Virus record (IMG/VR): IMGVR_UViG_3300001827_000102
Location: 1-22,030 of that record
Direction: 5' to 3' (one strand)
Length of the DNA stretch: 22,030 nucleotides
DNA from: a virus
The position numbers were made by a program, and so were the translations under genes. The notes below the pieces were generated by a model. It was given only the letters and a program-made list of their open reading frames with translations, made no database searches and had not been told where the DNA came from. Position 1 is the stretch's first letter. Every line of letters begins with the position of its first letter. This document shows, piece by piece, positions 15,109 to 17,725 of this stretch.

Positions 15109-15513
15109 TTACTTGCGATGTGTGATCGCGTTGTTTGCAAGCTTCTCCATGATCGCTACGAGCGGGTTCACGAAGTCGGCATCGATGTTGAGCTCTTCTG
15201 CGATACGCGCAGCTTCTTCCATCTTGCGAACAAGTTGGTGTTGCTTGAGCGTGTCGCCTGTTGGAAGGTTTTGAATATACTCTTGGATGCCTTCCAGCAT
15301 ATGCTCGATGCTGTTGTGGAGGTTGTACTCGCCGTCGAAGTAGAAGCTCCAGTACTCGCTCACGCTATCTTCGAAAGGCAGGCCGCGATGGTATAGTTTG
15401 CACCGCAGTCTATCGTCGAAAATTTCCGCTTCGAAACATGTCCAGTCGTACTCGAGTCGGTTGAGCAGGTTGTTGATGAGTTGGATTTCGGTTGCGAATA
15501 GTTTGATATCCAT
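15109..15513 (-). CDS. Hypothetical protein, 134 aa; first gene of the second leftward cluster
   Basis: I do not recognise a family. It opens MDIKLFATEIQLINNLLNRLEYDWTCFEAEIFDDRLRCKLYHRG, where a helix is followed by two strands, then has YWSFYFDGEYNLHNSIEHMLEGIQEYIQNLPTGDTLK and a long C-terminal helical part (LVRKMEEAARIAEELNIDADFVNPLVAIMEKLANN). The first half resembles a small alpha/beta domain, the second a helical hairpin. AGGAG lies about eight bases before the ATG. No promoter is clear immediately upstream, so it may depend on a leftward promoter further away or within the structured region. Confidence 0.7.
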   Translation of the reverse strand: MDIKLFATEIQLINNLLNRLEYDWTCFEAEIFDDRLRCKLYHRGLPFEDSVSEYWSFYFDGEYNLHNSIEHMLEGIQEYIQNLPTGDTLKQHQLVRKMEEAARIAEELNIDADFVNPLVAIMEKLANNAITHRK

Positions 15514-15834
15514 TGTGAGATCTCCTTAAAAATGGATGAACACACGCACGACAGAATTACCGTGCGCCGTGCCCCCTCTTTTGCCGGGGCAGGAGCATAG
15601 GGTAAAGGGTCAGCCCCGACACTCGTTCTTAGCATGTACGATCTCGACAGGGCTGACTCGTCCAAAAAAATCCTGCACCAAACGCAACGTCCGAGGGTTC
15701 TGATGCAGCGTAAACTTGAGACAAGATCTGGAGCGGAAAGATCTGCTGGGGCCTCAAGGTTACGCAGCGTCAGGTTCATCGGATGTAGCGTATCTATGGG
15801 CGGAGAACGAAATTCTAGGTCGGGTCGATTTTTC

Positions 15835-15862
15835 AACTAAAAAGAGAGCGAAGCACCACTGA
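15835..15862 (+). repeat. RNA loop module, copy A
   Basis: 28 bases starting AACTAA, A-rich, then GCGAAGCAC. It forms the loop of an 11-bp exact stem (15825-15835 with 15860-15870). It matches copy B at 16278-16305 in 23 of 28 positions, with no gaps. Confidence 0.8.
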
Positions 15863-16156
15863 AAAATCGAGAGGTCGTTCTTCTTGGGATCTATTTTTTT
15901 GTGACCCTTTACGCTGTGCTTCTGAACAGGCTAAGAGCTGGGCTCGAGCCGCACGGTACTTCTGTTGTGTGTGTGTTGGTGCTGGTTGCCCGAACAGATA
16001 CCCGCGTCATCGGCGCAGATGGTGACTTGGCAGATATAAGCGTTTGCGCGTCCAGCGCAAACTCAATCATGTTGGGATGGAATGGCGCGGCATCTGTTCG
16101 GAATAGTCAACCAGCACACCTTAGACTTATCAGTCCTGTGGCAGTAGAAAGTTAAG

Positions 16157-16244
16157 GTGACTGCCTCGATCCTGATTTATCATCGTGCCGCCCTGCCGAC
16201 ATAGGCCAAGGCATGATAAATCAGGATCGTTAGCAGGCAGGCAC
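16157..16244 (+). repeat. Long near-perfect hairpin in the structured region
   Basis: An exact 17-bp stem (16167-16183 with 16213-16229) is extended outward by CTGCCT with AGGCAG across a five-base bulge and by GTG with CAC across an A/G mismatch. The 29-base loop includes TGCC and GGC, which could add inner pairs. Confidence 0.85.
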
Positions 16245-16277
16245 AAAAGAAATGTTCTGCTGTCATCTGGACTCTTA

Positions 16278-16305
16278 AACTAATAAAAGCGCGAAGCACA
16301 ATTGA
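16278..16305 (+). repeat. RNA loop module, copy B
   Basis: The second copy of the AACTAA...GCGAAGCAC module. Here the closing helix is CTTAA (16274-16278) with TTGAG (16302-16306), including a U-G pair, different in sequence from the closing stem of copy A. Confidence 0.75.
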
Positions 16306-16567
16306 GCGTGATCAACCGGACGCACCCGGTTGTCCGGATTGTCAAGGAACGAGTTCCTTGACTCGACTGTCGGTTCGAAAACCGACCACGGTCTGAAGGA
16401 CCGTTTAGGGTTACTGTGGACAATCGTGTCTGAGATCTTGATCCTCTTGCACCCCCCATCCCCCCTGTTTGGGCGGCGTGGGGTGTCTGACGTCTGTGTA
16501 ATGTTAGTTTTGTAAATTCATTGCAGAATAATTTCATTGGGACTCCTAGCCCCCTCAAAAAATTTCG

Positions 16568-16596
16568 GGTATATTTTCATTCGGGTTTTGTGTAAA
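16568..16596 (-). promoter_or_regulatory. Possible leftward promoter overlapping a GTGTAAAC site
   Basis: On the minus strand, TTTACA (16596-16591) and TATACC (16573-16568) are 17 bases apart. The -35 lies inside GTTTACAC, the reverse complement of the GTGTAAAC core repeated at 12565-12670. It would transcribe the structured region and the 15513-13823 cluster leftward. The same site could instead control the rightward virion operon that starts at 16622. Confidence 0.4.
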
Positions 16597-16621
16597 CTGC
16601 CCTAAACTTTTGGAGTTTTTT

Positions 16622-17725
16622 ATGCCTGACAGCACTGACGATCTTCTGAGACAACTTAGAGAGAAGGCTTTTAAGGAAGAGTTAGATTTCCAACGGAAGC
16701 TGCATCCGGAAGCGGATAAGGACATGCAGGAGCGCCGGGCGCGTAATCGGGTTTTTCGGCATCCTCGTGGTGGGGGTGGCGGGATTTATGATTTGTCGCA
16801 GCAGGCTTCTGGGATGCGGTTGCCGCCTAAGAAGAAGTTATCTGGGGGTGGAATTGTTTCGTATTTTGAGAATGGTGGTCAGGCGAAAGGTGTGAGTCTT
16901 TTTGATCTTTTGCGTCCTGAGGTAATGAGGGAGGAGGAACGTAAGAGAGACATTGAGATTAACGAGGAGCGGATTGCGAGGAACGCGGCTCGGGAATATG
17001 AGGTAATGAAGCAGGGTTTGGACAACACGAAGGCGGATATGTTGGCTCGTGCGTATGCTGAGGCGGAGGATGAGTATTTGGTTGGGATGACGCCTACGAA
17101 TCCGAATCCGTTTTTTGAGATGGCTGTATCTGGTGGGCGTCACAGGGGGATGTTTGGCAGTTATCCGACTCGTCCGGTTGAGACGATTCGAACGACGGGG
17201 AGGGATGGTAAGCCTGTGGAGATTAATTATGCTGGTTATAGGCACAGAGGTGGTAAGCCTTTTTTGGCGAATTATGTTCCTAATTATAAGGAACGGGGAT
17301 ATGACTCTCGTGAGTTAGGTCTCCGCCCAACTTTGGAGGGTGCGAACATATCTTCTCCTATTGATTATGGGGATCTTTATCAGCAGCGTCTTCGCCCTGT
17401 TTTTACGGATCCTTATTTGGCTACGCCTGAGATTTTGGCGCATGAGGCTGCTCATATTGGGGAGATGGAGTTTATACGTGAGAATATGGATGTATTTCGT
17501 CCTTTGATGGAGGAGCGGGGGAGTGGGGCGTATGACACGGCGGAATTTTTGGTAGAGTTATTTGAGCCTCCGGAGGCGGATGAGAAGTTTACGGATTCGT
17601 CTGTGACGGATGCGGAGCGGATTGCGGCACAGGCGTATTTTAGGACGGGTGAGTTAGACACTGAGGTTCTTGGTCCTGCGTTAAGTGCTTTACTTGTACG
17701 TTTACGTGGTGCTGTGAGGAAGTAG
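16622..17725 (+). CDS. Virion-type protein with HExxH zincin motif, 367 aa
   Basis: The protein has a charged N-terminal helix (residues 1-45), a glycine-rich stretch with GGGIVSYFENGG (75-86), a long Glu/Arg helix (100-150), then a domain with TPEILAHEAAHIGEMEFI. H274-E275-A276-A277-H278 is a textbook HExxH zinc-binding site in a helix, so a metallopeptidase-like fold is likely. A third ligand may be one of the Glu residues after TAEFLVELFEPPEA. FENGG-type glycine motifs recur in long proteins of marine phage structural regions. It could process or degrade protein during assembly or entry, which is inference. The ATG at 16622 has GGAG about six bases upstream. It is the first gene of the rightward virion operon. 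Confidence 0.7.
   Translation: MPDSTDDLLRQLREKAFKEELDFQRKLHPEADKDMQERRARNRVFRHPRGGGGGIYDLSQQASGMRLPPKKKLSGGGIVSYFENGGQAKGVSLFDLLRPEVMREEERKRDIEINEERIARNAAREYEVMKQGLDNTKADMLARAYAEAEDEYLVGMTPTNPNPFFEMAVSGGRHRGMFGSYPTRPVETIRTTGRDGKPVEINYAGYRHRGGKPFLANYVPNYKERGYDSRELGLRPTLEGANISSPIDYGDLYQQRLRPVFTDPYLATPEILAHEAAHIGEMEFIRENMDVFRPLMEERGSGAYDTAEFLVELFEPPEADEKFTDSSVTDAERIAAQAYFRTGELDTEVLGPALSALLVRLRGAVRK

Follow-up and report, generated by a model that had tools for sequence, protein, structure and literature searches.

Very few giant structured RNAs of bacteria and phages are known to us. Two of them, GOLLD and ROOL, are cages made of RNA alone whose use is unknown: GOLLD is a homo-14-mer that lies near tRNAs, sometimes with a tRNA in its linker, and its expression rises during lysis; ROOL is a homo-octamer. 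Phage cis-acting antitermination RNAs, for instance the put sites of HK022, are likewise structured and precede phage genes of their own strand; they are far smaller and are found inside the transcript they control. GOLLD is encoded by phages and prophages, exceeds 800 nt in many members, is ornate, has separate 5' and 3' domains of unequal conservation, and its function is unknown (PMC12286853). ROOL is a large ornate RNA of phages and prophages with no known protein partner and is dispensable in a host strain (PMC12286853, PMC5643018).

The DNA analysed here, referred to as the window, is the whole 22,030-base virus record IMGVR_UViG_3300001827_000102; L-numbers such as L013 are labels for the other sequences with which it was compared. 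The phage genes in the window encode a family A DNA polymerase, UvrD-like and SNF2 helicases, a TOTE-type primase domain and a terminase small subunit. The SAR11 phages HTVC027P and HTVC023P are among the nearest named phages, with terminase small subunits just 31–41% identical to that of the window. Between two divergent genes lies an RNA that belongs to a previously uncatalogued family not in Rfam, and both its existence and its family are well supported.

An earlier interpretation made without database searches (the sequence-only reading) had likened the RNA to GOLLD and ROOL in size and context, had cautioned that homology was not shown and that the class might be new, and had proposed an Rfam covariance search. 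When this was run, the models for GOLLD, ROOL, HEARO, OLE and group I and II introns gave no match to the window at gathering score, and those for GOLLD and ROOL gave none at E≤10 on 15400–16700 or at E≤1 in six relatives. Rfam 15 as a whole gave nothing at E≤1 on the region; sub-threshold mir-4436 (E 1.7) was dismissed as noise. The caution was well placed, no membership of an Rfam family having been found. No tRNA was present in the window or in 19 of 20 related contigs, and the twentieth (L136) proved to be unrelated. BLASTN against named phages gave no match for the RNA itself, and no description of it was found in the open-access literature, pelagiphage papers included; subscription papers and most preprints were outside the scope of that search.

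Judged by these models, the RNA is neither an intron nor a GOLLD, ROOL, OLE or HEARO RNA. In size, complexity and phage origin no known RNAs come closer to it than GOLLD and ROOL, and the new RNA may work like them, although membership is not shown. It shares with GOLLD a phage origin, size, ornate structure and a two-domain layout with unequal conservation, but has no covariance-model match, no tRNA island and a fixed divergent intergenic site. Like ROOL it is large, ornate, phage-borne, without a known protein partner and dispensable, but it is larger, has neither a covariance-model match nor nearby tRNAs, and arranges its helices differently. HEARO and OLE are comparable as large ornate bacterial RNAs, but again there was no covariance-model match and no HNH or Oap-type gene was recognised beside the new RNA. 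Compared with the put sites, also structured RNAs on the same strand upstream of phage genes, the new RNA is much larger, the operon promoter is downstream of it and relatives manage without it.

Folding and anatomy of the RNA

It was confirmed that 15539–16411 on the plus strand is non-coding and folded far beyond chance. The folding energy of 15514–16500 (+) was −441 kcal/mol (z −13.4) and that of the core, 15528–16416 (+), was −404.8 kcal/mol (z −15.3), against z values of +2.0 to −3.5 for 18 stretches of 890 nt from the window's own coding sequence. The minus strand was structured too, less strongly (z −9.0). The open reading frames in the region are all short (68 and 84 aa on the plus strand, 92 aa on the minus strand and a TTG-started extension of the neighbouring gene) and none is conserved among relatives except where the DNA itself is near-identical. 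This bears out the earlier claim that no credible gene lies in 15514–16621; a conserved reading frame across the region, which would have refuted the RNA, was looked for in the relatives and none was found.

The MFE model has 20 helices of at least 6 bp (Table 1). P1 closes the 5' domain; the 3' domain is made up of arms and terminates in three hairpins. The sequence-only reading had counted at least eighteen helices covering most of the sequence, and every long-range helix that it named (the P5 arm, the 3' domain arm and the long arm of Table 1) was recovered along with its three consecutive 3' hairpins. Its extent of 15541–16410 is in close agreement with the 15539 to ~16411 found here. The largest helix, the long-range P1 that closes the 5' half, was absent from its list.

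Table 1. Positions in the window of the RNA, its structural elements and the adjoining features
Feature	Position	Strand	Basis
Giant structured ncRNA (extent of the core; real 5' and 3' termini unknown)	15539–16411	+	z −15.3, covariation, strand preference
P1 5' strand, 34-bp long-range helix closing the 5' domain	15539–15574	+	MFE; swap test, 23 RNAs
P1 3' strand, GU-rich, terminal GTTGTGTGTGTGTT	15940–15977	+	MFE; swap test
P2 5' strand, partner 15906–15924	15590–15608	+	MFE; swap comparison
P2 3' strand, partner 15590–15608	15906–15924	+	MFE; swap comparison
Hairpin GUCAGCCC/GGGCUGAC, large loop	15609–15657	+	MFE only
Helix strand, partner 15895–15905	15660–15669	+	MFE only
P5 arm, 27-bp helix 15682–15712/15761–15791 with internal loop	15682–15791	+	MFE; swap comparison
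Arm 15802–15810/15875–15883, bearing hairpin 15825–15835/15860–15870 and loop motif copy 1	15802–15883	+	MFE
Loop motif copy 1, ACUAAnAAnnGNGCGAAGCAC	15837–15856	+	Motif count; also in relatives
Loop motif copy 2, CTAATAAAAGCGCGAAGCAC	16280–16299	+	
3' domain arm, stacked helices 15979–15989/16106–16117 and 15990–15999/16092–16101	15979–16117	+	MFE; relatives
Inside the 3' domain arm: inner helix 16002–16025/16063–16090, hairpin 16042–16062	within 15979–16117	+	
Helix strand closing the 3' domain, partner 16403–16411	16118–16126	+	MFE only
Long arm, 16157–16166/16235–16244 and 16167–16182/16214–16229	16157–16244	+	MFE; L249
Candidate pseudoknot, GCGU 16306–16309 with loop ACGC 16320–16323 of hairpin 16310–16334	16306–16323	+	
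Three-hairpin 3' array: 16341–16362, T-loop-like 16369–16386, 16388–16404	16338–16404	+	Model R1, covariation
Conserved element, GGGTTACT to promoter, 102–105 nt	16408–16509	+	Also in phages without the RNA
Putative sigma-70-like promoter of rightward operon, TTAGTT-17-AATAAT	16504–16532	+	Conserved in relatives
Upstream divergent gene, MDIxL family, 134 aa, unknown function	15109–15513	−	No Pfam/PHROGs match
Downstream gene, 367 aa, unknown function	16622–17725	+	

In the window, the loop of the middle hairpin of the 3' array, UUCGAAA, is T-loop-like, and the core of the P5 arm, GTAAACTTGAG...CCTCAAGGTTACG, is common to the window and the L052-type RNAs. The loop motif, with the consensus ACUAA-A-rich-GNGCGAAGCWC, has two copies in the window where none is expected and is also present in L013, L048, L138, L249 and L146, several members having one or two copies. 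The idea that the motif is protein-coding was rejected because inspection of the sequences found the preceding reading frames to be inconsistent between members. A phage contig of 51 kb that seems to be unrelated also has the motif (AAAAGAGCGAAGCACGATTGA), in a short gap between genes (L011:14000–14060); this may be chance or a shared RNA motif.

Compensatory changes and strand

P1 is found in the same place in 23 RNAs despite very different sequences. The mean duplex energy was −43.9 kcal/mol with a strand's own partner and −29.1 kcal/mol with swapped partners, a difference that no permutation out of 100,000 equalled. In the 3' array, 97.3% of pairs were standard and 9 pairs and 30 cells had changed on both sides (pair counts from 18 sequences with the window left out); none of 500 shuffles reached the observed values and shifting the register destroyed the signal. 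Covariance model R1, built without the window, matched the array at 70.5 bits (E 1.1e-16), this being its sole match in the window. R1 gave no match in six records searched, which is uninformative.

For six more of the window's helices, counterparts that differ in sequence exist in L242, L249, L146 or RNAs further removed. When seven helices including P1 were considered, own partners were better than swapped ones in 22 of 23 comparisons, though the helix strands were taken from predicted folds and this biases the result towards own pairing. For P2, own partners were the better ones in the window, L242, L249 and L146. The outer helices of the 3' domain arm have equivalents of different sequence in L249 and L242. 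Own pairing in the candidate pseudoknot reached 55 against 34.8 expected (p 2e-4, 17 RNAs); some members do not form it.

In each of the 23 RNAs P1 was more stable on the plus strand (mean −43.9 versus −34.0 on the minus strand) and the MFE of the whole RNA was lower on the plus strand in 18 of 19. The preference arises because G-U pairs fail on the opposite strand or in DNA, and it argues for a plus-strand RNA in the same sense as the rightward operon. A lack of covariation in homologues would have told against the earlier proposal of a giant structured non-coding RNA in a phage; instead covariation was found in P1 and the 3' array, and the compensatory changes, the independent covariance-model match and the strand preference all support that proposal.

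An optional cassette at one fixed site

An identical copy of the RNA is present in IMGVR_UViG_3300001846_000313. The diverged relatives L013 and L041/L048, whose syntenic terminase small subunits are ~75% identical to that of the window, were reached via the loop motif, and further relatives came from searches with the terminase small subunit, both neighbouring genes and two RNA patterns. Pattern matches L006–L042, except L013, L021 and L041, were discarded as mostly chance matches in coding sequence. The distance from the leftward gene to the conserved GGGGTTACT-to-promoter element is 691–1131 nt in about 31 distinct upstream sequences, whereas in about 18 relatives the same gap is just 119–187 nt, that is, without the RNA; a few wrong automatic gene calls, e.g. 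L145, L146 and L243, are excluded from these counts. The window, with its RNA between the leftward gene and this element, meets the site criterion of the family. From GGGGTTACT to the promoter the element measures a nearly constant 102–105 nt in phages that carry the giant RNA and in those lacking it alike, and it has a C-rich core. Given that gaps are either long or short and that the promoter spacing is the same in both groups, the RNA constitutes an optional cassette whose site in related phages is fixed. As it is absent from sister phages, the late genes do not need it. The putative rightward promoter in relatives is TTGGTT-17-TATAAT; a consensus scan for sigma-70 promoters missed the corresponding element in the window and found no promoter for the RNA itself above chance.

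Structure is conserved across the family. The fold z was −4.3 to −15.3 for 19 RNAs including the window and −7.6 to −19.4 for four further RNAs with a different 5' domain (L246, L248, L251 and L252), giving a range of −4.3 to −19.4 across the 22 relatives. L246, at ~56 kb, is the longest contig among the RNA-carrying relatives. The arms are mosaic: L173 and L172 have the 3' part in common with L137 but not the 5' arms, and the long arm of the window is near-identical in L242 and wholly replaced by different sequence in L249. A second type of structured RNA (~0.78–0.92 kb), without the GU-rich P1 strand, was seen at the same site in L154, L166, L264/L265, L246, L248, L251 and L252. In L085 (4070–4135) the apparent 5' end of another giant RNA comes after an MDIxL-type gene that lies at the end of the contig.

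The gene adjoining the RNA is of the MDIxL (134–157 aa) or MAKxxY (83–98 aa) family, alternating between phages, and where Pfam and PHROGs were searched neither family had a significant match. Because the two families alternate and MAKxxY homologues occur also in phages without the RNA, the adjacent gene as an obligatory partner of the RNA is not supported. AlphaFold predicts for the MDIxL protein (pLDDT 80.8) an alpha-beta3-alpha arrangement with a superficial likeness to the dsRNA-binding domain; Foldseek with the predicted structure gave no significant match (best PDB E 0.09). One reading frame in L147 matches both families, which suggests a recombination joint.

Many relatives (L245, L054, L152, L154 and others) have a three-way-junction-like module, GATCGAAGCCCGWAGGG-hairpin-TTCACGAGAGC, after the 3' array; the window is without it and it has no Rfam match. 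The same module, with compensatory stem changes, was seen in non-coding gaps of microviruses at L267:1501–1553 (Microviridae MH572438) and L268:1501–1564 (Gokushovirus KT264808). These matches were not accepted as homologues of the RNA, since they concern a module missing from the window.

Possible roles of the RNA

Our reading is that a real family RNA of ~0.9 kb, carried as an optional cassette, acts in trans as an RNA or RNP scaffold, and we put the probability of this at roughly 0.6. The RNA would be transcribed during infection, an inference made without transcript data and without a confident promoter for the RNA. Its action in trans, as a large RNA or RNP scaffold, would broadly follow that of GOLLD and ROOL, there being no evidence of a target or a multimer; any multimerisation is also inferred. 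The rapid exchange of arms at a fixed site and the dispensability of the RNA suggest that its role is perhaps host takeover or counter-defence, both function and target being inferred. A more far-reaching idea, held only tentatively, is that the RNA represents a wholly new class among giant phage RNAs, a machine of recombining modules whose arms are swapped between phages like anti-defence cassettes and which exerts takeover or counter-defence control by RNA alone; such a machine would probably be a multimer or a large RNP.

A cis role is likewise compatible with the site, immediately before the rightward promoter. The RNA could form the beginning of the rightward transcript and control the structural operon, for example by antitermination or by a translation or transcription switch, and in all members it is indeed on the strand of the rightward promoter and ~100 nt upstream of it. 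However, the ~18 phages in which element, promoter and position are the same but the RNA is missing make such a leader unlikely: an essential cis role is disfavoured because these sister phages keep the operon promoter. The operon transcripts need not include the RNA either, because the promoter lies downstream of it, and free exchange of arms is unusual for a cis switch. If the minus strand were the functional one, the region would serve the leftward early operon as a 5' leader of ~1 kb. That strand is also structured and the 5' end of P1 lies directly before the ribosome-binding site of the leftward gene, but the weaker P1 in every RNA compared and the poorer MFE in all but one render this improbable.

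The fixed position between divergent transcription units, the inverted repeats and the GC skew, which goes from ~0.03–0.11 to >0.3 from 16500 onward, could belong to a DNA element such as an origin, a packaging site or a cruciform hot spot. We give this very little credence, as the plus-strand bias is due to G-U pairs, which are mismatches in DNA, and the pseudoknot and loop motifs suggest RNA; nor can it be an essential origin or packaging site, because many relatives are without the region. It is scarcely credible that the RNA is a divergent member of GOLLD or ROOL missed by the Rfam models: size, ornate structure, phage origin and mosaic domains would suit one, but there was no match at the thresholds given above and there are no tRNAs nearby.

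What is new is an apparently unrelated giant RNA family in relatives of marine SAR11 phages, and it bears on whether cages of RNA are in general use among phages. The ~31 natural variants, the sister phages without the RNA and the arms exchanged among phages are material for comparing structure, through what all variants keep, and function, through phages with and without the RNA.

Matches to known RNAs were seen elsewhere in the sequences compared. A related phage contig has a near-match to the alphaproteobacterial suhB/mmgR sRNA (L077:3871–3966, 38.3 bits against a cut-off of 41, E 1.7e-4), which is possibly a hint of the host. Pelagibacter phage HTVC027P has a match to the Flavobacterium-1 RNA, RF02976, in a divergent intergenic region (L266:6897–7017, 90.2 bits, E 6e-18).
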